A stretch of 64,000 bases of DNA. Origin: Candidatus Lindowbacteria bacterium RIFCSPLOWO2_12_FULL_62_27. GTDB lineage: Bacteria; Lindowbacteria; 2-12-FULL-62-27. The translations under genes and the position numbers were made by a program. The stretch covers positions 124,001 through 188,000 of the forward strand of contig MFPR01000001.1 of assembly GCA_001784175.1 (NCBI GenBank). The letters are read 5' to 3'. The notes below the pieces were generated by a model. It was given only the letters and a program-made list of their open reading frames with translations. It made no database searches and had not been told where the DNA came from. Each line of letters opens with the position of its first letter. The stretch's first letter is position 1. Of this stretch, positions 22,552 through 34,390 are shown piece after piece.

Positions 22552-23376
22552 ATAACGCGCTCCTCCTTACACAACCGCAATTTTAAAATCCAAACCGGCG
22601 TCAGGGCCGTCTATGAGTATTCCGCCCTGCCCTCAACAAACGATCGCGCCAAACTTCTCGCAGTTCAGGGCGCGCCGGACCGGTCCCTCGTCATCACCTC
22701 CCGGCAAACCGCAGGTCGGGGCAGGGGCGGCAACCGCTGGTGGTCCGGCCAAGGATCGCTGACCTTCTCAGTCATTTTCAGGGTGCCGCGCACGTCGATC
22801 GCACTGCAGAATCTCGCTCCGATTTCCCTCGTCGCCGGCCTGTCCGTTGTCCGGACCGTCCGGCGGATTCATCCGGCATGCCCGGTCGCCCTCAAGTGGC
22901 CCAACGACATTTATTCGGGGCCGAAAAAGCTCGGCGGCATCCTGACGGAGAGCAGCGTACGCGCCGGCCGGCCCGCCAACCTGATCGTGGGGGTGGGGCT
23001 GAACGTCAACACAAGGTTCGAGCGTGCGCCGGCGGCCATCCGATCCACTGCAACGTCTCTTTGCCAAGGCACGTCGCCAAGCCATCGCATGGACGAAGCC
23101 CGGGTTCTGGCGTCTGTCTTGAAGGAGCTGTGCAAACTGGTCCGCCAATTCCTCAGAAGCGGATTTCAGCCCCTTTGCGACGAATGGACTTCCTTCGACG
23201 CCGTCCCATTCGGAAGCAGAATCAGCGTCGACGACGGCAATATTAATATGGAAGGACGCTACGAAGGCATTCTTCCGACAGGTGCACTAAAATTGCGTGG
23301 AGAATCGGGCCTCCACACGATCCTCTCCGGCACGCTCCGTCCCGTGGGCGTACTTCCCATAACGCATAAAGTGTAA
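22552..23376 (+). CDS. birA: biotin--[acetyl-CoA-carboxylase] ligase BirA (short form)
   Basis: The catalytic signature RQTAGRGRGGNRW is followed by KWPNDIYSGPKKLGGIL and a C-terminal SH3-like domain. It joins biotin to the carboxyl-carrier protein. There is no N-terminal DNA-binding domain, so it is probably not a repressor. The frame is open from 22546 but holds no ATG, GTG or TTG before the conserved region; ATA 22552 is used as a boundary and the true start (possibly ATC 22588 or CTG 22627) is unresolved. The last two codons and the stop lie in the Xer site: KV-stop now, IM-stop in the uninterrupted chromosome. Confidence 0.85.
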   Translation: MTRSSLHNRNFKIQTGVRAVYEYSALPSTNDRAKLLAVQGAPDRSLVITSRQTAGRGRGGNRWWSGQGSLTFSVIFRVPRTSIALQNLAPISLVAGLSVVRTVRRIHPACPVALKWPNDIYSGPKKLGGILTESSVRAGRPANLIVGVGLNVNTRFERAPAAIRSTATSLCQGTSPSHRMDEARVLASVLKELCKLVRQFLRSGFQPLCDEWTSFDAVPFGSRISVDDGNINMEGRYEGILPTGALKLRGESGLHTILSGTLRPVGVLPITHKV

Positions 23377-24703
23377 ACTTGGTAGATGTATCTGATTGTA
23401 TACTGCTTTTTTCGTTACCTCCTCCCACTGTTGGGATAAGATTTTTTGGTCTGTACCGTTTGAAAACATCCATAACATAACGTTCGTCGGCCATGAGGGA
23501 CCAGGTGGAGTAATGGAGGCGGCCGGTCGGCATTTCCATGACGGGGATCCATTTCTGGGATACGGCCCAATCCAGGCGCTCCTCCGCCTCCGAAAGGTGC
23601 GTGGGCCGGCCGACGCGGCACATGTCGACGAGGTACTCCACGATCATGCGTTCACGCCAGGCGGTGGCGCAGCGATAGACGGCGCGTTCGGCAATCATCT
23701 GCCAGCGCCGGCAGGCGCCGAGTTCCCGGCGGTTGCATTCGAGTTCATGGCGGGCCTCCAGGCAGTCGCCGGCGTTGGCCTGGGCCCATTCGAGGAGGCG
23801 GGTCTTTGATTCGGCCTGGATGTCGTCGACCGACTTCGTCGGGATCCGTTCGAGACGCCGGCGCCAGTCGGCGAGGATGTCGGCTTTCGTTCTGGACGGA
23901 TCCTTGTCCCGGCGCGTGTTCATTTCGGCGGCCTTCGCGTTCGTAGTTGTGAGGAGGGCCTTCCGGATCTGCGCCTGGCGCGTCGAAAACTCCTCCTGGG
24001 CCTCGTGGGATACGAGGTCGGACCGCCACTGGCCATGGGGCATATAGGAGCGCTTGAGGTCGAAGCGGTGGAGGCGGGCGCGCAGTTCGTGCATGTAGAT
24101 TTGTGTCGCCAGATAGGGAAAGTCCCGGAAGTAAAATCGGGCGCCGTGGATGCCCGAAAAATGCGGCGCGCCATTTTTCTCCCACTGCGTGATGTTGAAC
24201 ACCAGCACATGGGAGGACAGGTGCGGATCATACTCGCGTGAGAAGCCGTCACGCAGGATCGAGTAGACCATGTTATCAGTCGATAGATCGACTTGAGTCT
24301 GGCCGCCCTTTCCCATCCTAGCACGAGAGTATCGTATCTCTATTTCCCGCATGGTCGCCAGGACCGCGTCATCATGCGCTGCCGTGATGTCGGCACGGGT
24401 CATATTGCGCGGTAGCTCAAAGCCGTCCATGAGCGCCAGCATGGAGATTGATTTGGGCGCGGAAAAGGCCCAGGAAAAGCAAAGTACCTTGTGTTTTTGC
24501 ACGATCTTTTTGCCGGCGGCGTCACAGCCTTTGAGCAGGTTCACCATGTCGTCCCGGCCAATGGGCTGCCCTTCCTCAAAGCCGAGGTAGGGCGCGGTTT
24601 TGCCGTAGACGCGGACTCCTACGGAGTCATCAGCCTGGTCAAAGTAGTAGTTTGTACTCTTGTCGTAGAAATAATCGGCGATGCCGACCGGGTCCTGTTT
24701 CAT
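23243..24703 (-). CDS. TrwC/TraI-type (MobF) relaxase, N-terminal half of a replicase split by integration
   Basis: As integrated, 486 residues; the last 41 codons (up to the stop at 23243) are the Xer core and host birA read antisense. The relaxase domain shows Tyr pairs ADYFYDKSTNYY (residues 9-20), FSAPKSISMLALM (80-92) and DPHLSSH (159-165), which align with the catalytic tyrosines, FSAPKS motif and HxH region of TraI. Two of the three metal-binding His appear replaced (R151 and S163), leaving H165. Start ATG 24703 with AGGGG upstream; TTG 24769 would add 22 residues. In the circular element this frame runs on into the helicase at 34379. Confidence 0.85.
   Translation of the reverse strand: MKQDPVGIADYFYDKSTNYYFDQADDSVGVRVYGKTAPYLGFEEGQPIGRDDMVNLLKGCDAAGKKIVQKHKVLCFSWAFSAPKSISMLALMDGFELPRNMTRADITAAHDDAVLATMREIEIRYSRARMGKGGQTQVDLSTDNMVYSILRDGFSREYDPHLSSHVLVFNITQWEKNGAPHFSGIHGARFYFRDFPYLATQIYMHELRARLHRFDLKRSYMPHGQWRSDLVSHEAQEEFSTRQAQIRKALLTTTNAKAAEMNTRRDKDPSRTKADILADWRRRLERIPTKSVDDIQAESKTRLLEWAQANAGDCLEARHELECNRRELGACRRWQMIAERAVYRCATAWRERMIVEYLVDMCRVGRPTHLSEAEERLDWAVSQKWIPVMEMPTGRLHYSTWSLMADERYVMDVFKRYRPKNLIPTVGGGNEKSSIQSDTSTKFTLYALWEVRPRDGACRRGSCGGPILHAILVHLSEECLRSVLPY
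23351..23379 (+). other. attL: Xer recombination site, left end of the integrated element
   Basis: XerC-type arm ACTTCCCATAA (23352-23362), centre CGCATA (23363-23368) and degenerate XerD-type arm AAGTGTAAACT (23369-23379). It shares 18 identical bases (23351-23368) plus TGTAAACT with the right copy at 34362-34390. The only differences within the site are the three bases 23369-23371. The arms resemble the dif arms of Bacillus. By the crossover model the XerC arm is host DNA and the XerD arm belongs to the element. Confidence 0.85.
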
Positions 24704-24893
24704 CGGGACGCCCCTAAACACGTCCCACCCCAACTTCGAATCGCGCGTTAGCTCCTTTCGGATCGACAAAAAAATCCAACCCGCCGGGCGGCGCCGCGCG
24801 CGGGCAGACCGGGGCCGAAGGGGTCAACCCCGGCGAAACGTTATCGGAATGCGATTGGATGCGCTCTGAATCCCCTTCTCTCATTACGCGGAG

Positions 24894-24923
24894 TGTCTAC
24901 CAGTGATTAAAACAAAATGTCAA
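24894..24923 (-). promoter_or_regulatory. putative promoter for the relaxase gene
   Basis: On the minus strand TTGACA (24923-24918), 18 bp spacer, TAGACA (24899-24894). It would yield a ~185 nt leader to ATG 24703 that contains GC-rich inverted repeats (for example GGGGTCAACCCC around 24820). A replicative origin or nick site might lie in this leader; no such site is recognised. Confidence 0.45.
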
Positions 24924-24979
24924 TAGCCGGCGTGAAAATTGTTTCCATGTGCGGCGCCGTCGAATCCGCGGGACAGCGC

Positions 24980-25008
24980 TTGATTTTCCGGTATACCGCC
25001 GGTATACT
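24980..25008 (+). promoter_or_regulatory. promoter and operator of the VapBC-like pair
   Basis: TTGATT (24980-24985), 17 bp, TATACT (25003-25008). The spacer and -10 carry CCGGTATAC twice (24988-24996 and 24999-25007), also readable as GTATACC-GCC-GGTATAC dyad. A repeat over the promoter is typical of antitoxin autorepression; the binding protein is inferred to be the antitoxin. Confidence 0.7.
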
Positions 25009-25030
25009 GTCCCTCGAGGAGGTGATCGAC

Positions 25031-25261
25031 ATGAAAAAACAGTCGCTCAACGCCACGTTCACGCTGAAAGTGACGCAGGAAATGAAAAAAGAGCTGGACA
25101 AACTCGGCGCGGACATGCAGAGATCAGCGCTTGAGGAAATGCTCAACGACAAGATCAGGGACAAGTTGATGCGGCGCCTGGACCGGATGAATCGAGGCAT
25201 GAAGCCTCTGGGCGGCCGACCCGTCGGCGAGATCCTTCGGAGGATGCGGGACGGTGGATAG
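25031..25261 (+). CDS. antitoxin-like protein (VapB type), element-borne
   Basis: 76 residues. The N-terminus (NATFTLKVTQEMKKELDKLG) looks like a ribbon-helix-helix antitoxin and the C-terminal half is basic and probably unfolded until bound to toxin. Start ATG 25031 after GAGGAGGTGATC. It overlaps the PIN gene by 8 bp. Only this pair lies on the + strand of the element. Confidence 0.7.
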   Translation: MKKQSLNATFTLKVTQEMKKELDKLGADMQRSALEEMLNDKIRDKLMRRLDRMNRGMKPLGGRPVGEILRRMRDGG

Positions 25262-25670
25262 ACTGGTGATGGACGCGAGCGCATGGATCGAGGTCATTTT
25301 GGCGCAGCCACACGCAAAGCTGGTCCGTCCATATATCCATCGCGCGGAATGGTTGGCGCCGTCATGGATCCGGATCGAAGCCGCAAACGTCATCCTGCTC
25401 AAGGCCCGTGAAATGAAACGGCCGGAAATATTGAATCGACTTCAAGATGTCATGAGATTTCCGTTTTACAAAGTTCCGCGGGGCGTATGGTGGCGGGACG
25501 CAATAGAGATGGGGACGCGGCACAGGATCACATTCTATGATGCGGTCTATCTTTCCATCGCGAGGAAATTCAGTCTTGCGCTTCTGACGCTGGACAATCT
25601 TATGAATCGAGCAAGAGAAATCGAGCGCATACCGGCCGTCATCGAGACCATCCAAAAACCGAGAAAATAG
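25254..25670 (+). CDS. PIN-domain toxin (VapC type), element-borne
   Basis: 138 residues. PIN acidic residues are visible: D in VMDASAWIEV, E in RIEAANVILL, D in TFYDAVYLSIA and D in LLTLDNL. VapC toxins are RNases that cut tRNA or rRNA. Start GTG 25254 overlaps the antitoxin stop. Such pairs on prophages stabilise the element or block other phages; here that is inference. Confidence 0.85.
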   Translation: MDRLVMDASAWIEVILAQPHAKLVRPYIHRAEWLAPSWIRIEAANVILLKAREMKRPEILNRLQDVMRFPFYKVPRGVWWRDAIEMGTRHRITFYDAVYLSIARKFSLALLTLDNLMNRAREIERIPAVIETIQKPRK

Positions 25671-25681
25671 CGGCGTACAAA

Positions 25682-25703
25682 CCCGTATCCTCGCGGATAC
25701 GGG
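25682..25703. terminator. hairpin between convergent toxin and phage operon
   Basis: CCCGTATCC, loop TCGC, GGATACGGG: a perfect 9-bp stem in the 55 bp between the convergent ends of vapC and the structural operon. T tracts are weak on both sides, so termination strength is uncertain. Confidence 0.5.
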
Positions 25704-25725
25704 ACGGGGGGGAAATATGGTCGGA

Positions 25726-25899
25726 TTAGTTGACGGGTTCGACGTCGGACGACACGTCCATGGCCGGCGTCAGTTCAATCGTCCGTTTGACGCCGAATCC
25801 GACGTCGGCCGTGAGGGTGTCGGGGACGAAGCGCCGGGGGCGCAGGAGCAGCCAGGCGAGAAGGAGCGCAAGGAGGATCCACAAAAGATTACGGTTCAT
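25726..25899 (-). CDS. small membrane protein, last gene of the phage operon
   Basis: 57 residues. N-terminal membrane segment (NLLWILLALLLAWLLL), then Arg-rich RPRR and a short tail. The ATG overlaps the upstream stop (TGATG). Unrecognised; a virion membrane or lysis protein is possible. Confidence 0.6.
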   Translation of the reverse strand: MNRNLLWILLALLLAWLLLRPRRFVPDTLTADVGFGVKRTIELTPAMDVSSDVEPVN

Positions 25900-26141
25900 C
25901 ACGGCGCGGGCGGCGGATAGAGGACCGGATCCGTCGCGCGGGCCCGGGCGCCGGCGGCGTCGAGGATCGTGCAGACGGCGCAGCCGGCGAGCTTGTGGGC
26001 GAGGAGGCGCGGAAATTCCAGCGACATAATCACCGTGCCGTCGGTCGCGGTCGGTTTTTGCGCCAGACAAAAGGCGTCGACCTTCACGTCATTTTCGAAG
26101 TGCGTTCGCGCGGCGTAGACGTAGTTGGTTGCCATGGTCAA
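25899..26141 (-). CDS. small phage protein of unknown function
   Basis: 80 residues (or 78 from the second Met). Soluble-looking, with an Ala-rich centre (LLAHKLAGCAVCTILDAAGA) and Pro tail. Overlaps both neighbours by 1-4 bp, which supports a real coupled gene. No family recognised. Confidence 0.55.
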   Translation of the reverse strand: MTMATNYVYAARTHFENDVKVDAFCLAQKPTATDGTVIMSLEFPRLLAHKLAGCAVCTILDAAGARARATDPVLYPPPAP

Positions 26142-26914
26142 TGGATGTCGTTTATGAATGGATTGCCGGTGAAATTGAATGTGTTGGCAGTGCCGTTCAC
26201 GATTTCGTTGATGGGTTGATTTCCGCTGAGATTGATGTCGTCATTGAAGCGGCAATTGAAAAGGAGCCCCATTTCCGGCGATGTCAGTTCAGAAAGCATG
26301 TCGCCCTGAAGTTGTGCAATTGTTCTTGCATGGTTGTACAGACGGACATCATCCATGAGTCCGTTAAAAAAATGGCTGTTGCCGTAAACCGAACCGACCC
26401 GCCAATTCCATCCGATGTTTCCGGGCAGACTGTTCCCGTGCGAACCACTAAACACGGCGTTGAAATAAAATGAAACATTACCCGCCGCCCTTACCTGGCT
26501 TACGTATGTCCAGATATTGAGCGGCACGACGCCGCTCGATTTCAGGCCCGTCAAGTTGTCGTTGAGAAATCTGTTTTGGTCGATCAACAATCCCACAAAA
26601 CTTGACGATCCGCCGTCGACGGATGTGACCGTATAATTCGCGCCGGCAGGCGGCGGCGTAATAATTTTGATCCATCCCGAAATTGTATAATCATTCAAAG
26701 TCGCCGCAAGCGTAAACGGCGACTGGACAAACGAATCGACGCCGTCAAACATGAGGGACTTGTTTAATTGCGTCTCCAGTTTAAGTACAAGCTCATCATT
26801 GACAAATTTAAATTGCTGGTTGCTGACTTCGGATATGAATTTATGACGGAAGGCCGTGCGGCGGTTGCCGAGTTCATCGACAAGAGTCGGCGGCGGGTTG
26901 ATGATCTGGCCCAT
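26138..26914 (-). CDS. LamG/concanavalin-like protein, candidate spike or receptor-binding protein
   Basis: 258 residues from ATG 26914 (TAATG overlap with the previous gene). Residues ~55-230 form a LamG/ConA-like fold: SLMFDGVDSFVQSPF, NDYTISGWIKI, and FFNGLMDDVRLYNHARTIAQ. Such domains bind glycans. The locus is more AT-rich than its neighbours, as often seen for variable host-recognition genes. A vertex spike role is inferred from family and position near the lysis gene. Confidence 0.7.
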   Translation of the reverse strand: MGQIINPPPTLVDELGNRRTAFRHKFISEVSNQQFKFVNDELVLKLETQLNKSLMFDGVDSFVQSPFTLAATLNDYTISGWIKIITPPPAGANYTVTSVDGGSSSFVGLLIDQNRFLNDNLTGLKSSGVVPLNIWTYVSQVRAAGNVSFYFNAVFSGSHGNSLPGNIGWNWRVGSVYGNSHFFNGLMDDVRLYNHARTIAQLQGDMLSELTSPEMGLLFNCRFNDDINLSGNQPINEIVNGTANTFNFTGNPFINDIH

Positions 26915-27114
26915 TACTTCTCCCGTCCCTGGGCCAGGCTGATCGTGAGGAGAAGATCGTTCGCGTGTTTGATCTCCTTTTCGAGTTCGGCGATTTTCTC
27001 GTTGAATCTGAATTCCATCTTTTGCAGCCGCGTGTAAAAGTAGAATCCCAGCGCGACGACGGCCGGGGAGGACTGCGCGGCCTGGATGAGAAAGCGTACC
27101 AGCGCCTCCTCCAT
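26914..27114 (-). CDS. small membrane protein with coiled coil (holin-like candidate)
   Basis: 66 residues. One membrane segment (SSPAVVALGFYFYT) is followed by a charged heptad region (MEFRFNEKIAELEKEIKHAN). It starts on the stop of the transglycosylase gene (TAATG). A small membrane protein next to a lysozyme gene suggests a holin, but topology alone cannot show this. Confidence 0.6.
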   Translation of the reverse strand: MEEALVRFLIQAAQSSPAVVALGFYFYTRLQKMEFRFNEKIAELEKEIKHANDLLLTISLAQGREK

Positions 27115-27722
27115 TATGCCGCCACCTTCCGGTAAAATTCCATGACGCGGTCCACGTACTTCTGATTGACATAGGTATTTTCGACGTAGTTCGGATGCGA
27201 AGCCGCCGGCCGGCCCTGCCAGGTGTCGGAGAAGAATTTGCCGTCGTCGGCGTGGACGACGCGGCCGCCGGCGAATTTCAGGGCGCTGCCGGCATTGTAA
27301 GACGCGGCGACATGTTCCGTCACGCCCTTGTAGCGCCGGGTCTGCCGGCCGATGTAGAGGCCGGCCAGGTCGGCGGATACGGACGGATCGAAAAGATCGT
27401 CGAGCTTGACCGAAGGGCGCAATTCCTCGGCCGTGGTGTTGAGCATCTGAAAGAGTCCCGCGGAAGCCACGCGCCGGCCGGCCCGGGCCGTCAGGTTCTT
27501 TTCCTCAAGGACCGCCGCCGGATCGCCGGAGGACTCGACCTTGAGAATGGAGAGCATGAGGGCCGGATCCACGCCGTGTTTGTCGGCCGCAAGCTCGACC
27601 AGGGGGATCCATCGGTCGATGTTCACAAAGCCGGAGGGTTTCACGCGGGTCACAGACGGCCGCCTAGAGCGGGTGGCAACAATCCAGATAAAAACGGCGG
27701 CGAGCGCGAGAGGGATATACAC
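27114..27722 (-). CDS. membrane-anchored lytic transglycosylase (SLT family)
   Basis: 202 residues. N-terminal membrane anchor (IPLALAAVFIWIVAT), then an SLT domain with the catalytic Glu in ILKVESSGDP, AGLFQMLNTTAEEL and VAASYNAGSAL. It cuts peptidoglycan. Tailless phages such as PRD1 carry a virion transglycosylase for entry as well as lysis enzymes; which role applies is not known here. Confidence 0.85.
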   Translation of the reverse strand: MYIPLALAAVFIWIVATRSRRPSVTRVKPSGFVNIDRWIPLVELAADKHGVDPALMLSILKVESSGDPAAVLEEKNLTARAGRRVASAGLFQMLNTTAEELRPSVKLDDLFDPSVSADLAGLYIGRQTRRYKGVTEHVAASYNAGSALKFAGGRVVHADDGKFFSDTWQGRPAASHPNYVENTYVNQKYVDRVMEFYRKVAA

Positions 27723-27737
27723 GGCGGCGCCGGCGGC

Positions 27738-28286
27738 TCATTCGTTGACTTCCAGGACGGCGACAGTCTGGGCGGCGGCGCCGGGGTTGAACACATAGAC
27801 GGCCGCCGTGGTCGTCAGGGACACGGCGCCGGCCGGGGGGAGGGGATAGCCCCGGCCGGTGGCCGCCGCCGAATCGCCGACCCGGAGGGTTTCAACGTTC
27901 GTGTCGAGGCTTGCGACGATGATTTCTTTTCGGGTCGCGTTAACGGCCTTCACGAGCACGGTTGCGCCGGCCGGCAGGGACACGTCCGTGGACGACACGA
28001 GCGTCTGACCGCTCGTCACCGTCACGTCTCCGGTCAGGACGAACCGGGTAAAGTCGCCGAATCCGGCCGTCACGGTGATCTGCACGTCGGCGCCGGTGGG
28101 GTTGGTGATGCGGAAACTTTCGTAGGGCCGTTCGGACCGGCGGGCGTCGCCCTCCTTCATGTCGGTGATGTCGCCGTTGATTTCGACGTTGACGATCGCC
28201 GTCGATGCCTTCATGTGGATGAAATCGCCGGTCACGGCAAAGTCACTGCCGGCGCCGGCCGCAATCGTTCTCGTAAAGTCTTTCAT
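27738..28286 (-). CDS. putative phage structural protein (beta-rich)
   Basis: 182 residues, rich in Thr/Val/Ala and predicted beta strands (for example FRITNPTGADVQITVTAGFG and TVTSGQTLVSSTDVSLPAG). Together with its 88-residue neighbour it looks like minor capsid or penton-type jelly-roll proteins. No family recognised from sequence alone. Confidence 0.65.
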   Translation of the reverse strand: MKDFTRTIAAGAGSDFAVTGDFIHMKASTAIVNVEINGDITDMKEGDARRSERPYESFRITNPTGADVQITVTAGFGDFTRFVLTGDVTVTSGQTLVSSTDVSLPAGATVLVKAVNATRKEIIVASLDTNVETLRVGDSAAATGRGYPLPPAGAVSLTTTAAVYVFNPGAAAQTVAVLEVNE

Positions 28287-28287
28287 C

Positions 28288-28554
28288 CTAGATGGCCTTC
28301 AAAGTCCGGATCAGTCGGCCGGATCCGGCCGTAAAGACGGCGGTGACGGATTGGGCGTTGTTGTTGATGACCTTAAACTGGAAAAAGACGCGGTTGTCGA
28401 AAATGAGGGCGTCGCCGGGTTGCATTTCGACCTGATCCTGGTCGATTTCGACGACGAGGTTTTTGTTGGCGCTTTTCAGGAAAATAAAATCGCCCTGCCG
28501 GATCACGTCCTGATTTGCGTTGGCGAGGATCGTCACGGAGATGTCACGGAGCAT
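28288..28554 (-). CDS. small beta-rich phage structural protein
   Basis: 88 residues, alternating hydrophobic/polar strands (ISVTILANANQDVIRQGDFI, NLVVEIDQDQVEMQPGDAL). Size and pattern suit a small jelly roll such as a penton. Only 1 bp separates it from the next gene. Function is a guess. Confidence 0.6.
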   Translation of the reverse strand: MLRDISVTILANANQDVIRQGDFIFLKSANKNLVVEIDQDQVEMQPGDALIFDNRVFFQFKVINNNAQSVTAVFTAGSGRLIRTLKAI

Positions 28555-29016
28555 TTAGGCGCGCCTCGTTGCAAAATAGGCGCCGCCGAGGAGCACGAGT
28601 CCCACGATCACAAACTTGGAGATGTTTTCAAATGTTTTGGTCGTCTCCTGGCGCGTGGCCTCGGCGATTTGCGCTTGGGTTTCAAGACTCGCTTTCTGGA
28701 TTTGCTGCACAAGTTTTTCCTCTCCGGTGCGGACGTTTTCGAGAAAGCCGAGGGATTTTCCGAAGATGTCGCCGCCAAGATCGAGCACGTCGCCGGTACC
28801 CTTCGCCACCACGTCCAGGGACCGCAAACTAATGTCCCTGGCGGCGGCCACGGATTGAGGGTCCGTGATCGTGACGGGTCCGTCGACGCTTGCGACGGTG
28901 ACGCCCTCGGTTTCCATGACGGATACCGGCTTTGAGACGGTGACAGTCTCCTGCTGGGTCGTGGTGACGGCGCTCGATTTGGAGTCCTCACCGAAAATCT
29001 TTGAAAGAAGTCCCAT
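28555..29016 (-). CDS. phage membrane protein with C-terminal anchor
   Basis: 153 residues from ATG 29016. N-terminus MGLLSKIFGEDSKSS, a long polar/helical middle (residues ~60-120), and a C-terminal membrane segment (FVIVGLVLLGGAYFATRRA). Possibly a virion internal-membrane protein. Confidence 0.6.
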   Translation of the reverse strand: MGLLSKIFGEDSKSSAVTTTQQETVTVSKPVSVMETEGVTVASVDGPVTITDPQSVAAARDISLRSLDVVAKGTGDVLDLGGDIFGKSLGFLENVRTGEEKLVQQIQKASLETQAQIAEATRQETTKTFENISKFVIVGLVLLGGAYFATRRA

Positions 29017-29017
29017 G

Positions 29018-29233
29018 TCAGGCGTTCCGAAACGCGAGGAAAAGCGCGAAGGCGGCCAGACCCAGAAGAAGGAGGACCGCCGTCCGGTCGCGGCCGGCGA
29101 CGTTAAAGTCTCCGAAGTCAATCGTCACGGGACCGCCTCGGGCTTCGCCGGATCGGGTGGTGAGAGCGGCGTTCACGCCGGCTTCGGGGTTGAGTTCGCC
29201 GGCCGCAAGGGCGGCGATTTCGCTGAACGGCAC
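29018..29233 (-). CDS. small phage membrane protein
   Basis: 71 residues from GTG 29233. Acidic/polar N-terminal half and a C-terminal membrane segment (TAVLLLLGLAAFALFLAF). It lies tightly between two other small membrane proteins. Confidence 0.55.
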   Translation of the reverse strand: MPFSEIAALAAGELNPEAGVNAALTTRSGEARGGPVTIDFGDFNVAGRDRTAVLLLLGLAAFALFLAFRNA

Positions 29234-29235
29234 CG

Positions 29236-29373
29236 TCAGCGCCTCGGCAAAAAAACGGTCAGATAGACGACGCCTCCGAGGATAAGGAGCAGGGAAAAGA
29301 CGTTTCGGGAGGTGCGGCTTATGCCGAGCGTCGCCAGAATGCCGGTTCCAAGGCCCAGAAGAAGAAGCGGCAT
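29236..29373 (-). CDS. very small two-span phage membrane protein
   Basis: 45 residues: MPLLLLGLGTGILATLGI, a short basic loop (SRTSRN), then VFSLLLILGGVVYLTVFL and a basic end. The frame exactly fills the gap between neighbours (stop 2 bp before the next start), which supports a real gene despite its size. Confidence 0.55.
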   Translation of the reverse strand: MPLLLLGLGTGILATLGISRTSRNVFSLLLILGGVVYLTVFLPRR

Positions 29374-29374
29374 G

Positions 29375-29662
29375 TCAATTCGACGCCGCCACAAACGCAA
29401 GAAGGGCCAGGCCTACAACGATCACGAGCATCCCGAGGCCCTGGTTGTTCGCGGCCGGGGATGCGGCGGTTTGCGCGGGTTTGGCGGAGGAAGCGCCGGG
29501 CGGGGCCGGCGGCGTTCGTTCGGGGAAAACGTCGGGCGCCGTCGGCCCGCCGCCGTTAAAAATGACCGGCTCGTCCAGTTCCGGCGGCAGTCCCTTCAGG
29601 AAAATGTCCAGGGCCGCGCGGGCGCCGGTTCGGAGGGCCTCGTCCAGGTTCGGGGTCGCCAT
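29375..29662 (-). CDS. small phage protein with C-terminal membrane anchor
   Basis: 95 residues. Amphipathic N-terminus (DEALRTGARAALDIFLKGLP), a Pro/Ala-rich middle and a C-terminal membrane segment (LGMLVIVVGLALLAFVAASN). Directly downstream of the capsid gene. Confidence 0.6.
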   Translation of the reverse strand: MATPNLDEALRTGARAALDIFLKGLPPELDEPVIFNGGGPTAPDVFPERTPPAPPGASSAKPAQTAASPAANNQGLGMLVIVVGLALLAFVAASN

Positions 29663-29672
29663 GAGGCGCCGC

Positions 29673-30491
29673 CTAGACCGACTGGATCCGGTTGAGGTAC
29701 TCGACGACGACGGGGATCGCGCCGGGGGCCGACAGGGTCAGGATGAAGCGCAGGTCGTTGACCTGTTCCGTCGCCAGGGCGTCGGCGCCGTTGCCGTCCT
29801 CGGTCGTGTCGTAGACGAATACGCCCGTCTGCGGCACGCGCACGCCGTCGGACTGGACCCGGTTGTTTTCGGCGACCAGCCGCTCAAAGACCGTGAAGTT
29901 GTCGCGCTTCACTTCGAGCTTGGTGATGGCCGAACTCAAAAACAGGATCTTGTTGACGAGCGGTCCGCGGGGCAGGTCGGAAATCTCAAAGGTCCCGCTG
30001 CCGGCGGCCGTATAGGAAAAGTTCCGGATGTCCCGGATGATGCCCGACGGCCGGGGCGCCGACTGGATGGCCTTCGCCGAGAGCGTGGGAACGGAGACGC
30101 CGGCCGTAATGTCGATTTCGAGGGCCAGGGTCGTGATCTTCGCCTGGTCGTTCGGGTCGCCCGTACCGAGGGACGTCAGCTCCTCGGCCGCGCGGGTGCG
30201 AAGTCCGAAGCGGTCGAAGTCGACGATCAGGATATTGTCGGCGGTCGCGGAGGCGCGGCCCTCGTATTTCATGATCGTGTCCAGTTGCGTGCCGGAGGTG
30301 AATCGCTGAATGGCCTTGCCGTTGGCGACGATGCGAAGTTCCGTCATCTGCGCCGGCGTCAGATTGCCGTAAGAAACCAGGACCTGGTGATAGGTGCTGC
30401 CGATGGGAAGCCGGAGGGTGGCAGTTCCGGTCTGGTTGGCGCCGGGGATGCCCTCAAAATTCGGCAGGACCTTTGTATTTTTCAATCCCAT
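29673..30491 (-). CDS. candidate major capsid protein, double-jelly-roll type (PM2 P2-like)
   Basis: 272 residues, close to the ~270 of PM2 P2. Features reminiscent of this capsid group: LRLPIGSTYHQVLVSYGNLT, LRIVANGKAIQRFTSGTQLD with a following Tyr, then FSYTAAGSGTFEISDLPRGP followed by VNKILFLSSAITKLEVKRDN, and a C-terminal LRFILTLSAPGAIPVVVEYL. It is the largest structural gene and lies two genes after the packaging ATPase. Two jelly rolls cannot be proven from sequence by eye; a structural prediction would decide. Confidence 0.7.
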   Translation of the reverse strand: MGLKNTKVLPNFEGIPGANQTGTATLRLPIGSTYHQVLVSYGNLTPAQMTELRIVANGKAIQRFTSGTQLDTIMKYEGRASATADNILIVDFDRFGLRTRAAEELTSLGTGDPNDQAKITTLALEIDITAGVSVPTLSAKAIQSAPRPSGIIRDIRNFSYTAAGSGTFEISDLPRGPLVNKILFLSSAITKLEVKRDNFTVFERLVAENNRVQSDGVRVPQTGVFVYDTTEDGNGADALATEQVNDLRFILTLSAPGAIPVVVEYLNRIQSV

Positions 30492-30518
30492 GTCGATGTG
30501 CTCGCTTTCTGTCGTTTC

Positions 30519-30617
30519 TCAGGCGTTGACGATGTCTTTCAGCGCCTGCACGCGGTTGACGACTGCCATCGTCACCACGACGAGGATCACTGTCCACACA
30601 ATCATTCTCGGGGTCAT
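30519..30617 (-). CDS. tiny single-span membrane protein upstream of the capsid gene
   Basis: 32 residues: MTPRMIVWTVILVVVTMAVV then NRVQALKDIVNA. An excellent ribosome-binding site (AAGGAGGACAAACAG) stands before the ATG, and a consensus promoter lies just upstream, so it is likely translated. Probably a virion membrane protein. Confidence 0.6.
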   Translation of the reverse strand: MTPRMIVWTVILVVVTMAVVNRVQALKDIVNA

Positions 30618-30645
30618 CTGTTTGTCCTCCTTAAAATGCAATACA

Positions 30646-30695
30646 GTTGCAAATGCAACATGACCGCATTATACCGAAGGCGGGCCGCCTGTCAA
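30646..30695 (-). promoter_or_regulatory. consensus late promoter with operator
   Basis: On the minus strand TTGACA (30695-30690), 16 bp, TATAAT (30673-30668): both hexamers match the sigma-70 consensus. Just downstream lies GTTGCA-AA-TGCAAC (30646-30659 on +), and AAATGCAA occurs twice 17 bp apart (30634-30641, 30651-30658). The dyad sits at about +2 to +15 of the expected transcript, a good place for a repressor. It would drive the 32-residue gene and the capsid operon. Confidence 0.75.
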
Positions 30696-30881
30696 GTCCT
30701 TTTTTGTCATGACCGTCACGACGATCCGGGCGGTACTTTTCAGTTCGGCCACAAGATCGAGAAACTCGCAGGGCGTCACACGCCGGCCGTCGACATGGAT
30801 TTCAGCCAGGTCGGGGTCGATCTTCTCGACATAGAGTCGAAGGACGGGCTTCCAGGAATGATAAAGCGACAGAACATCCAT
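30669..30881 (-). CDS. small phage protein of unknown function
   Basis: 70 residues, soluble, mixed alpha/beta (VLRLYVEKIDPDLAEIHVDG). The downstream promoter overlaps its 3' end. Unrecognised. Confidence 0.5.
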   Translation of the reverse strand: MDVLSLYHSWKPVLRLYVEKIDPDLAEIHVDGRRVTPCEFLDLVAELKSTARIVVTVMTKKDLTGGPPSV

Positions 30882-30887
30882 GAGCGG

Positions 30888-31502
30888 CTAATTGGGCGGC
30901 GCGGCCGCGCGGCGGACGGAATCGCCGGGGCGCCAGTCGGCGGGCAGAATGTGGGCGGCGCCGGTTTCGCCGTGGTAGACGATGCATTCATGTTCGTCGA
31001 GACAATCCGCCATGGTTTCGTAATTCGGGATCATCCTGGCGCAGTAGTCCCGGTCGCGCGGTTCGGAGAAGCGGAAGCAGTAGAGGTCGTTGTTCGCGGT
31101 GAGTTCCCGCGGCACTTCCGCGGGACGCTGGGAGGTGGCGAGAAGTTCCACGCCAAAATGCCGGTCCCGCCGGCAGAGGGTGGCGAAAAAGACGGACCGG
31201 ACCGTAGGCGATACAAAGTCGGCGACCTCCTCCACGTGCAGCCGGGGGACGCGAAGCCGAAGGACAATCTCGCAAATGGTGTCAAATTCGTCGCGGTCGC
31301 AAAAGGGCGGCACGTAGGCGATATGTTGCGAGAGCGGTCGCTTGAGCCAATCGAATAAAATGCGGTGAGAATCGGTCTTTCGTCTAACGCGATGTTCCCC
31401 GTTCGGGTCGATGATGAGGGTGGGACCCGAGACGGCGAGAAATTTTTTTGCAAGCGTGGTTTTTCCGGAGAGCTTGCGGCCGAGGATGACGCGGGTGGGC
31501 AT
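30888..31502 (-). CDS. packaging ATPase of the A32/FtsK-HerA type
   Basis: 204 residues. Walker A GRKLSGKTTLAKKF (residues 8-21), IDPNGEH, Walker B-like RLHVEEVADF, and LLATSQRPAEVPRELTANND, the sensor/arginine region typical of FtsK-HerA packaging ATPases (PRD1 P9, PM2 P9, poxvirus A32). These translocate DNA into preformed tailless capsids. It is close to the capsid gene, as in other members. Confidence 0.85.
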   Translation of the reverse strand: MPTRVILGRKLSGKTTLAKKFLAVSGPTLIIDPNGEHRVRRKTDSHRILFDWLKRPLSQHIAYVPPFCDRDEFDTICEIVLRLRVPRLHVEEVADFVSPTVRSVFFATLCRRDRHFGVELLATSQRPAEVPRELTANNDLYCFRFSEPRDRDYCARMIPNYETMADCLDEHECIVYHGETGAAHILPADWRPGDSVRRAAAPPN

Positions 31503-32057
31503 TTATGCATGAAGGGGCGCCGACGCCGGCGGCGCGGCCGGAGGCGGCGGCGCGGCGCCGGCCGCTTTCCACCGGCGATAGAGGACGACCTTGTCGGCGG
31601 CGATGTCGAGGATCGTCATGAGGGCCACCGTCTCCGCCATGTATTTGAAAATCGGATGATCTCGGTTCTTGAGGTAGAGCGGATAGATCGCCTCCTGGAC
31701 GGACTTTCTCTGTCCGTCGGTCAGACTGACGGCGTCGCAGCCGGTGGCGGTGGCGCACATGCCGAACAAGCCTCCGACGATATGGCCGAGGACCACAGGC
31801 TCAAGAACGGCAGCAGGAGGGGCCGCCGGCGGACTCTGCGGCCTGGGGGCCTCCGAGTCCGCCGGCTCCTTGTCCGGCGCGCGGCGGCAGCCGAGCTTTT
31901 GGTGGACTTTCAGGCCCTGGTCGGTCTTGCAGATTTTCCCGCACGCCGGACACTCATGGCGGCGGGCGGCCAGCTCGCGGGCGGCGGCGTCGACGATTGC
32001 GGCGCGGTCCGGTGGGTCCGGCGCCGGAGGCGCCGTCACAGCAGCGGTCGGTCCCAC
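31503..32057 (-). CDS. phage protein with C2H2-like zinc finger and hydrophobic C-terminal half
   Basis: 184 residues. Residues ~35-57 hold C-x2-C ... H-x4-C (CPACGKICKTDQGLKVHQKLG then C). A Pro/Ala linker follows, then segments that could cross or lie on the membrane (VVLGHIVGGLFGMCATATG; ETVALMTILDIAADKVVLY). The stop abuts the ATPase start. Function unknown. Confidence 0.65.
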   Translation of the reverse strand: MGPTAAVTAPPAPDPPDRAAIVDAAARELAARRHECPACGKICKTDQGLKVHQKLGCRRAPDKEPADSEAPRPQSPPAAPPAAVLEPVVLGHIVGGLFGMCATATGCDAVSLTDGQRKSVQEAIYPLYLKNRDHPIFKYMAETVALMTILDIAADKVVLYRRWKAAGAAPPPPAAPPASAPLHA

Positions 32058-32284
32058 CAGGATTTTTCCTCCGCCGGTTTTTCTTCCGTCCTGGGTATTG
32101 ACTCGCCCGCCGTTCGTTCGTCCTGCGCAATCACAGGCGCGGAATTCGGGTCGTCTACGGCGCCGGCGCCGTTTTCATGCGCCGAAGCGTCCACAGGCGG
32201 AGGCGCCGGCGGCTCGTCTGGGGCCGGCGCCGGCGCCGGCGGCGGAGTTTCACAAATATTGCAGACCTTTTCCGGGTCGGTCAC
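32036..32284 (-). CDS. Pro/Ala-rich small phage protein
   Basis: 82 residues with CNIC near the N-terminus, a Pro/Ala-rich middle and acidic tail (SWWDRPLL end). It overlaps the next gene by 22 bp. Low-complexity content limits interpretation. Confidence 0.45.
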   Translation of the reverse strand: MTDPEKVCNICETPPPAPAPAPDEPPAPPPVDASAHENGAGAVDDPNSAPVIAQDERTAGESIPRTEEKPAEEKSWWDRPLL

Positions 32285-32484
32285 GGCACACGCGCGACCG
32301 CCGAGTCCGGCGGCGCGGCCGGCGCTGACGTCGCGGTTCCGTCCGCCGAGTCCGGCGGCGCGGCCGGCGGCGTCGGCGCGGATCCGGCCGCCGGGTCCGG
32401 CGGCGCGGCCGGCGCCGCCGGCGCGGATCCGGTCGCCGGGTCCGGATGACGCTTGTCCTTATTCGTTCCTCTTCGTCCACTCAT
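32281..32484 (-). CDS. Pro/Ala repeat phage protein
   Basis: 67 residues from ATG 32484 with GGAGGAG upstream. Basic N-terminus (SGRRGTNKDKRHPDP), then repeats of GSAPAAPAAPPDP type. The underlying DNA (about 32295-32440) is a tandem-like GC repeat, CCGCCGxGTCCGGCGGCG units, prone to length change. Confidence 0.5.
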   Translation of the reverse strand: MSGRRGTNKDKRHPDPATGSAPAAPAAPPDPAAGSAPTPPAAPPDSADGTATSAPAAPPDSAVARVP

Positions 32485-32519
32485 GAGGCACTCCTCCACA
32501 AATCTCCCGAGGGGAGTTT

Positions 32520-32759
32520 TCATCGAAGCACAATCAACGTTGTGCTTATAAAATCTATCTTCCATCCTCGCGCGCGGTATCGGCGGCGCAGCTCCCGTTG
32601 CGTATCGGCCGATGTACACCGTGAGAGCCGTATTGTGAGGGCGTCGCCGTTCCAAAATCTTGTGATCATCGGATCAATCTCACGCTCATAAACGTTGGCC
32701 TCCATCGTTGTGCCGTCATCACAGAACGGCCGCAAGGCTTGAGCATGACTGATTGCCAA
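32520..32759 (-). CDS. small phage protein of unknown function
   Basis: 79 residues, basic C-terminal half (DTQRELRRRYRARGWKIDFI). It starts 3 bp after the next upstream stop. Unrecognised; possible regulator. Confidence 0.5.
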   Translation of the reverse strand: MAISHAQALRPFCDDGTTMEANVYEREIDPMITRFWNGDALTIRLSRCTSADTQRELRRRYRARGWKIDFISTTLIVLR

Positions 32760-32761
32760 AG

Positions 32762-32974
32762 TTATCGAACCTCCGCCGAACCTTGCGGCAATCGTTTCAT
32801 AACCTTGTCCAGGGCGGCCCGAAGGTAGAACAACCCTCCGGCAACGATCAAACCCTTGGCATTCAACGCGGCGCCCGCAAAGTCTCCCATAGAAAGCGGA
32901 CTGATGACCGGCGGGGCGCTGACGATGGCCAAGAGGCCCGCAAACAGTTTCGTTCTGAATCCTGAAAGGTTCAT
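32762..32974 (-). CDS. small phage membrane protein downstream of the helicase
   Basis: 70 residues from ATG 32974 with GAGGAGGTC upstream. Hydrophobic segments LFAGLLAIVSAPPVI and LIVAGGLFYLRAAL. First gene after the replicase stop (17 bp). Confidence 0.55.
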   Translation of the reverse strand: MNLSGFRTKLFAGLLAIVSAPPVISPLSMGDFAGAALNAKGLIVAGGLFYLRAALDKVMKRLPQGSAEVR

Positions 32975-32990
32975 GACGTTTGACCTCCTC

Positions 32991-34379
32991 TCATGCGATG
33001 TTTGAAACCATTGATCTATGGTTCGGAAAGGGTTTGCAACCCTTCTCAAATGGTTCTTCAAACGATTCGAGCAACTCGGAATGAACGGTTTGTCGAATCG
33101 TTTCGCGGCGCGCCAGGCACTCCTCCAGCGTCACGTCCGGCCAGCCCCAGGAAAGGGTCGTTTCGGCGTGCTGTCCGAGCCTGGCGAGAAAGAGCAGGTT
33201 TTCCCAATCGTCGGTGAAGATGAGACAGAAGTCCCGGGCGCGCGTGATCTGAACGTACTGGGCCCGCATGGTCTCAAGGTCCTTGCGGGTCGTGTCGGCG
33301 TCGATCAGGACCGTTCCGACGGTCCGGCCCTGGGCCTTCCAGGTTGTGACGGCGTAGCCATGGTCGAACCACGGATAAAGCGCCGGATTGATTTCGACGG
33401 TCCGGCCGCCGTCGAGCCGGACGGTGAAACGGTCCCGGCCGATATCGGCCACCGTTCCGGTGAAGCCGTTTCGGAGATTCAGGCGGCCGTAGAGGTTCTT
33501 CGTGCAGACGATGCGGTCGCCCGGCAAAATCTCCACGTCGAATTCGGAGCGCTTGCGCCTCGCGCGAAACTTCACGGCCGCGCGGCGCAGACGCAGGGGG
33601 AAAAGCTTTTCGCGGATCCGGCGGTTGATCTCCATGCACGAAAGGGCCGAAGGAGAAATGACAAGCATCCCGGGCCGAAAGAGGCGCGCGATTTCGGCCC
33701 ACCGTTCCTCCGGCGGCCCGATCTCGCGGACCCAGCCGAGGTCCCGAAGCGCGCCCAAAGACGCCGGCATGTTTCGCGCGCGGGCCAGGTCGCAGGCGTG
33801 ACGCAGACCTGAATGACGCTGTCTGAAATTTTCGTGCAGTTCCACAAGGACGCCGGCGCCGCGCGCGAAGTCGCAAAGGTTCGTGAAGGGATCGCCGGCC
33901 GTCAGGGGCGTCAGCTGCGAGGGATCGCCGATCAACAGGAGATTCATGCCGAGCCGTTCGCATACCCGGGTCAGGCGCGCCATGTCGGTTATGCCGATCA
34001 TCGAGCTTTCATCGACGACGATGAGCATGGAATCGGCGGACCGGCGGCGCTTGATGCCCTCGTAATAGGCGAGGAAAGCGGCGAGCGTCACGGCGGGGAT
34101 GCGGCTTTCCTCGTGCAGGTTGGCCGCCGCGGCGCCGGTGGGCGCCACGCCGCGGATCTTCCATCCCCGCGGTAGAAGTATCTGACGCAACACGTCGACC
34201 AGATACGTCTTTCCGGAGCCGGCGTCTCCACGCCAGCACATGAAAGTTTCGTTCTGCGCCGTCAGCGATTGAACGGTATAGATAAGGGCTTTTTTCTGGT
34301 CCCCTGTAAGATTATGTAGACTTTCCTCAAGCTCCAATCCCGCAAGGAGCTTGCGGAACGCTACTTCCCATAACGCATA
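32991..34379 (-). CDS. TraI/RecD-type SF1 helicase, C-terminal half of the split replicase
   Basis: 462 codons read from the Xer core. SF1 motifs: GDAGSGKT (Walker A), VVDESSMI (II), GDPSQLTPL (III), ENFRQ (IV-like), TWKAQGRTVGTVLIDA (V) and VQITRARD (VI). In the integrated state an in-frame TAA from the host XerD arm (34382-34380) stands just before the core, and the first usable start is TTG 34337, without a good ribosome-binding site. In the circular element the frame is fed by the relaxase ORF (23369 joins 34379). It would unwind DNA during rolling-circle type replication. Confidence 0.85.
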   Translation of the reverse strand, partial: YALWEVAFRKLLAGLELEESLHNLTGDQKKALIYTVQSLTAQNETFMCWRGDAGSGKTYLVDVLRQILLPRGWKIRGVAPTGAAAANLHEESRIPAVTLAAFLAYYEGIKRRRSADSMLIVVDESSMIGITDMARLTRVCERLGMNLLLIGDPSQLTPLTAGDPFTNLCDFARGAGVLVELHENFRQRHSGLRHACDLARARNMPASLGALRDLGWVREIGPPEERWAEIARLFRPGMLVISPSALSCMEINRRIREKLFPLRLRRAAVKFRARRKRSEFDVEILPGDRIVCTKNLYGRLNLRNGFTGTVADIGRDRFTVRLDGGRTVEINPALYPWFDHGYAVTTWKAQGRTVGTVLIDADTTRKDLETMRAQYVQITRARDFCLIFTDDWENLLFLARLGQHAETTLSWGWPDVTLEECLARRETIRQTVHSELLESFEEPFEKGCKPFPNHRSMVSNIA

Positions 34380-34390
34380 TTATGTAAACT
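34362..34390 (+). other. attR: intact dif-like Xer site at the right end of the element
   Basis: ACTTCCCATAA (34363-34373), CGCATA, TTATGTAAACT (34380-34390): a 28-bp site with the two 11-bp arms and 6-bp centre of a dif site, very near the Bacillus dif arms. It is intact on both sides, so chromosome dimer resolution should still work. Left of the element host genes run on +, right of it mostly on -, as expected around the terminus. Confidence 0.85.

Follow-up and report, generated by a model that had tools for sequence, protein, structure and literature searches.

What becomes of a viral enzyme whose gene runs through the very site at which the virus is inserted into a chromosome is the question raised by a 64,000-nucleotide stretch of the genome of Candidatus Lindowbacteria bacterium RIFCSPLOWO2_12_FULL_62_27 (contig MFPR01000001.1, positions 124,001 to 188,000; hereafter the window, to whose numbering the positions refer), which forms part of a 292,560-bp contig in a draft genome of 4.39 Mb and comes from a phylum represented by just three members in the set of whole genomes that we searched. 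At positions 23351..34361 the window holds an integrated element (provirus) of 11,011 bp, bounded by exact 18-bp core repeats and lodged at dif, the chromosome-dimer site of the host, with a relaxase reading frame at one end and a helicase reading frame at the other. Joining the two ends in silico makes of them one gene of the MobF type, and the explanation that, taken as a whole, we consider probable is that of a replicase split at its attP, whereby integration turns replication off and excision turns it on.

The position of the element is defined by its core, TACTTCCCATAACGCATA, with exact copies at 23351 and 34362 (an offset of 11,011 bp), a 17-bp part of which, ACTTCCCATAACGCATA, has only those two copies in the draft genome; once the element is removed in silico, what remains is a dif site of 28 bp, ACTTCCCATAA-CGCATA-TTATGTAAACT. 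At the junctions, attR (34363..34390, plus strand) is a perfect host dif, ACTTCCCATAACGCATATTATGTAAACT, the XerD arm of which places a TAA in frame with the helicase (minus strand, 34382-34380), and attL (23352..23379, plus strand; 28 bp) shares its XerC arm and 6-bp centre with dif and has an element-derived XerD arm, AAGTGTAAACT. A sister-genus genome carries an uninterrupted dif, with two mismatches in 25 bases relative to that of the window, close to the same gene of the Crp/Fnr type (531 bp at 77% nucleotide identity); neither the capsid gene nor the relaxase gene of the element found a match in it. Host XerC and XerD both score above the NCBIfam equivalog cut-offs, and the 14 tyrosine-recombinase matches of the genome all fall outside the element, in which no gene of the Phage_integrase family was detected. 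Given the dif-flanking cores, the presence of host XerC and XerD and the lack of a recombinase match within the element, integration by host Xer at dif appears to be the straightforward reading. The host xerC gene (G000 C1:192552-193034, L037) lies ~34 kb away from dif. A host birA-like biotin ligase gene (22783..23376, plus strand) overlaps dif with its 3' end, and integration changes only its last two residues (...ITHIM* becoming ...ITHKV*) while the stop is kept, so that the host gene remains intact. The GC skew of the 292-kb contig does not reverse sharply at dif and changes sign ~100 kb away at the nearest, so that the position of the terminus is not confirmed by skew.

In the attP of the element the XerC arm and the centre are those of dif while the XerD arm is degenerate, which, together with a host that supplies both recombinases to an element in which no integrase of its own was detected, is the configuration of an integrative mobile element exploiting Xer (IMEX) of the TLC-phage/GGI (gonococcal genomic island) type, as defined in PMC4246890 and PMC5357621. 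By its sequence this attP is of the reversible TLC-phage type, with dependence on XerCD predicted; according to PMC4246890, integration of the TLC type can be reversed and phage production depends on excision.

Circularization in silico produces the joint ...CTACTTCCCATAACGCATAAAGTGTAAACTTGG..., read on the minus strand as KFTLYALWEVAFRKLLAGLE, and a free circle would be recognized by CTACTTCCCATAACGCATAAAGTGTAAACTT flanked on both sides by element sequence. The relaxase frame, which on that strand runs into attL, and the helicase frame, which emerges from attR, become in the circle a single stop-to-stop frame of 947 codons with no internal stop, the product of which, counted from the ATG at 24703, has ~907 residues. 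The 5' part (23369..24703, minus strand) encodes a TrwC-type relaxase (PF08751, E=7e-41) and a linker with the MobF 'YSTW' motif; the 3' part (32991..34379, minus strand) encodes a superfamily 1B (SF1B) helicase of the RecD2/Pif1/Dda/TraI fold (PF13604, E=2e-38; TraA_Ti, E=3e-49). Two unrelated genes might in principle abut the ends of the element by coincidence and be left with an open joint by chance: random sequence matching the local composition would show the correct frame together with ~50 open codons at a probability of ~0.02, and such a value, ~2%, is not negligible when taken alone, for which reason our argument rests on homology across the joint and not on the frame alone.

Homology strongly disfavours such a coincidence, which we regard as exceedingly improbable, inasmuch as the halves make up one complete MobF protein that aligns end to end with single-gene homologues. 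In blastp comparisons a single high-scoring segment pair (HSP) joins residues 30-797 of the reconstructed protein to a Nostoc homologue (C052; E=4e-39), and another joins residues 29-798 to the MobF protein of a P. silesiensis plasmid (E=2e-37); the nearest relative found, encoded in one open frame in a genome of another lineage (G381), aligns with residues 25-776 at 29% identity (E=1e-97). The fused MobF proteins closest to the split one among those found are encoded at L095 6463-8724 and L096 1-1836, in genomes G381 and G117. The relaxase part also scores above the NCBIfam cut-off for MobF, and two N-terminal tyrosine clusters (DYFY...NYYF) align with the Y18/Y26 region of TrwC. When each half was folded and compared by Foldseek, the best match of the relaxase half was TrwC (1qx0, E=3.6e-13), and the helicase half matched RecD2 (E=5e-25) as well as TraI. 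The Y(S/T)TW motif conserved in MobF linkers precedes the joint, within the left half, and the Q motif of the helicase follows it, within the right; the MobF order of a TrwC relaxase domain followed by an SF1B helicase is found in one polypeptide only in the reconstructed circle. Because single-gene MobF proteins align through the joint in one stretch, a genuine MobF gene with attP in its interdomain linker, and not a chance fusion, is well supported by these alignments.

Much of this had been anticipated in an earlier note on the window, which had described an 11,011-bp element between core copies with a stop-free joint, a relaxase-then-helicase product of ~907 residues joined in the linker, and Xer recombination with attP inside a gene that is unbroken in the circle; the exact cores, the 947-codon frame, the domain matches and the alignments bear out these claims. 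The alignment with TrwC/TraI that it proposed has now been run and gives single HSPs across the joint to single-gene MobF proteins, and the contrary case that it named, that of free relatives in which the two genes are separate, was not encountered, the nearest homologues being single fused genes.

The lysogen presents a different picture, since there the helicase half lies ~11 kb from the relaxase part. Past the core the relaxase takes in 41 codons of host sequence before it stops at 23243, and the helicase frame is interrupted, within the XerD arm of the host dif, by the TAA at 34382-34380; the 41 host residues and the TAA had been correctly described in the earlier note. This stop is read in the frame TTT-ACA-TAA-TAT, is present likewise in the sister-genus dif (ACA-TAA-TAT), and is replaced in attP by CTT. 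In a scan of the early start codons of the lysogen's helicase half, none had a Shine-Dalgarno-like motif, whereas the next downstream genes do have such motifs (AGGAGG at 32974, AGGAG at 32480); the absence is suggestive only, because some other genes of the element also lack one.

These features bear on a competing view, namely that the position of attP is simply tolerated in a flexible linker and that there is no switch at all, either because both halves are produced in the lysogen and work as separate subunits or because another regulator, e.g. the ribbon-helix-helix (RHH) protein described below, blocks replication in the lysogen. The linker is indeed the least conserved part of the protein, insertions there are tolerated by TrwC, in which an interdomain insertion can leave wild-type activity (PMC5826034), and in other dif-integrated relatives attP lies beside regulator-like genes, so that its placement is flexible. 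Against this stand the lack of a Shine-Dalgarno-like start for the helicase half, the stop that dif places just upstream of it, and the statement that the separated domains of TrwC are non-functional in conjugation (PMC5826034); on balance we find mere tolerance rather unlikely.

According to the mechanism that we favour, that of a replicase split by integration, the virus would enter and leave the chromosome at dif by means of host XerC and XerD, its attP being a dif half-site of the TLC-phage type that lies within the linker between the two domains of a MobF relaxase-helicase gene. Since the MobF-type gene is the only one of replication type recognized in the element, where neither a polymerase nor any other replication gene was recognized, its product is likely to be the rolling-circle replicase. 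The gene would be whole in the free circle, as its reconstructed sequence indicates; in the lysogen the relaxase would end in 41 host residues and the helicase would stand behind a dif-encoded stop with no recognizable start signal. Owing to this split and this stop, the integrated form would be unable to launch rolling-circle replication out of the chromosome, Xer excision would restore the replicase in the same step as it releases the genome, and lysogeny would thereby be self-silencing for replication. An attP within a gene that governs the life cycle and whose product differs between prophage and free form is what characterizes a switch of the type of mycobacteriophage BPs, here read at the level of sequence, and it is a likely prediction that integration and excision switch replication off and on. 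We are more hesitant, at slightly less than even confidence, about the stricter proposition that there is no separate replication repressor and that Xer at dif would itself be the switch, through an inert relaxase, an untranslated helicase and a stop contributed by the host dif.

Since the capsid operon is preceded by a promoter-like site of its own, the capsid and structural genes need separate control. The site is a perfect sigma-70-type promoter, TTGACA-16-TATAAT (30668..30695, minus strand; a pattern match only), upstream of the capsid gene; it is the sole 12/12 match in 13.5 kb and is present in both states, which weakens the further idea that integration also severs the whole late operon from its promoter.

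Several observations weigh against the proposed switch. Instead of the three histidines of the MobF metal site (H150/H161/H163 in TrwC) the relaxase has D/S/H; most MobF proteins have H/H/H, the aspartate as first ligand is common to G381 and G117, and the serine equivalent to H161 is unique among the MobF proteins compared. No nick site was identified in the element, the linker is ~20-30 residues longer than in other MobF proteins, the core contributing part of it, and the helicase half may be expressed leakily in the lysogen from an unrecognized start. Finally, AAGTGT is also the XerD arm (TTATGT in dif) in the attP of G712, a further double-jelly-roll provirus integrated at dif, although that attP is non-coding and located near a small helix-turn-helix-like gene.

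The unusual metal triad, with its serine not seen in other MobF proteins compared, might also mean that the provirus is decaying, the relaxase being already inactive and the open joint frame a relic. On the other hand, every recognized gene is intact as an open frame, the att sites are both precise and no stop occurs in the 947-codon frame, which makes decay quite unlikely, and on the sequence comparisons relaxase activity is plausible.

In three other dif-integrated double-jelly-roll elements, i.e. Vibrio phage NO16, L016 and G712, the frame that spans attP has at most 85 codons, which indicates that an attP within a large gene is a feature of the window element and not of the group. The G712 provirus measures 11,644 bp, from L081 8664 to L082 (joined coordinate 20308), and L016 1683-11914 is an IMG/VR provirus of 10,231 bp with dif-like sites at its ends. 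The XerD arms of the NO16 and L016 attP sites deviate from dif in a way similar to that of the window element. We had considered the change from TAA to CTT as a coding adaptation and dropped this idea, since the same change in the non-coding attP of G712 deprives it of value as proof of coding selection; the arm change may belong to the attP type, with the open frame exploiting it.

As to the nature of the element, its capsid protein (29673..30491, minus strand; PF18628, E=8e-26; PF25513, E=1e-35) is a PM2-like double jelly roll that matches both domains of PM2 P2, as capsids of the Vinavirales P2 type do, with ~41% identity to capsid proteins of Autolykiviridae and 32-33% to those of NO16 and PG21. 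Near it lies a gene for a packaging ATPase of the PM2/NO16 kind (30888..31502, minus strand; phrog_2666, E=6e-17; tblastn to the NO16 ATPase, E=1e-9), weak but consistent evidence of the arrangement that accompanies such capsids. From its genes alone, the element is to be classed as a putative temperate virus, tailless and with a double-jelly-roll capsid, within the PM2/NO16/Autolykivirus assemblage; the Autolykivirus-like records examined have DNA polymerase genes instead of MobF. MobF proteins being mostly plasmid transfer relaxases, the enzyme might alternatively serve the conjugative mobilization of the element and not its replication, but capsid, ATPase and lysis genes are present, whereas transfer genes and other replication genes were not recognized in the element, and we accord mobilization a low probability.

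The remaining genes include one for a lytic transglycosylase (SLT domain; 27114..27722, minus strand; PF01464, E=4e-15) and one for a Laminin-G/concanavalin-A-like, lectin-like protein (26138..27172, minus strand; PF13385, E=6e-15), which is likely to act as a receptor-binding spike. A VapBC-like toxin-antitoxin pair of RHH and PIN proteins (25031..25670, plus strand; RHH E=0.002, below the cut-off; PIN E=5e-8) is divergent from the relaxase gene, and an 8-bp palindrome (24991-25007) overlaps a promoter-like site; the region 24917-25670 is a possible module for provirus maintenance or control. The segment 31503-32057, which lies between those for the packaging ATPase and the helicase half, encodes a protein with a weak C2H2-type zinc-finger match.

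A relative with the same architecture was not found in any of our searches. Used as lone queries against IMG/VR, the relaxase, capsid and helicase retrieved no close relative; the exact attP-arm pattern had no match there, nor did the relaxase among phage records. One scan of ~85,000 genomes with the capsid profile gave two loci, in neither of which a MobF gene was detected, and none was detected at the ten further capsid loci of a second genome group. In genome G624 (L086-L089) a single chromosome bears a pair of P2-type capsid loci that score identically and are distant from the capsid of the window; one of them is bounded by a 39-bp terminator-like direct repeat.

If the proposed mechanism is true, it would constitute a lysogeny switch without a dedicated regulator, in which one and the same recombination would move the genome and determine whether it can be copied, and which would be timed by the host machinery for dimer resolution, active at cell division. 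Integration-dependent switching would be extended from repressors to a replication enzyme. The element is in addition a rare case of a MobF conjugation protein on a capsid-encoding element, and it suggests a search rule, namely to look for genes that are whole only once a provirus has been circularized.

The earlier note had also claimed novelty, which holds in part: for a relaxase-helicase split by Xer, full-text searches of one open-access library, a limited test, yielded no precedent, but Xer phages with attP in a gene (RSS0, XacF1) and a replication-linked case (SNJ2) have been published. Plasmid MobF proteins (TrwC of R388, TraI of F) share with the reconstructed protein the domain order, folds, linker motif and tyrosines; the version in the window differs in residing on a capsid-encoding element, in being split at an att site and in its D/S/H metal ligands. 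Phage NO16 and its relatives (Corticoviridae/Asemoviridae; PMC9966536) resemble the element in their PM2-like capsid, circular double-stranded DNA of ~10.6 kb, dif/XerCD integration and degenerate XerD arm of attP, whereas the NO16 attP lies in no long frame and a MobF-like gene was not detected in it. Among filamentous phages that use Xer and dif, attP lies inside ORF13 of RSS0 (PMC3816273) and ORF12 of XacF1/Cf1c (PMC4076744); here, too, host XerCD acts with dif as attB, and integration alters the phage gene in which attP lies, but that gene encodes a DNA-binding regulator, RSS0 ORF13 is shortened only at its C-terminus, and in neither case is an enzyme of replication split. Integration-dependent immunity in BPs, with attP in the repressor gene (PMC4557955), likewise alters a protein and sets the lysogenic state, albeit through a phage integrase and with truncation activating the repressor, whereas splitting is predicted to inactivate the enzyme here. 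In SNJ2, a betapleolipovirus of Natrinema, circularization makes the attP-spanning orf26 and a replication operon, each needed for genome replication (PMC13107129), so that excision creates an open reading frame across attP and a joined gene set as it would in the window; this virus is nonetheless archaeal, has its own integrase, and its attP-spanning frame, situated downstream of the gene for that integrase, does not encode a relaxase-helicase. Compared with RSS0, XacF1, BPs and SNJ2, the principle is thus known, and the new part would be a relaxase-helicase that host Xer splits between its two catalytic domains.

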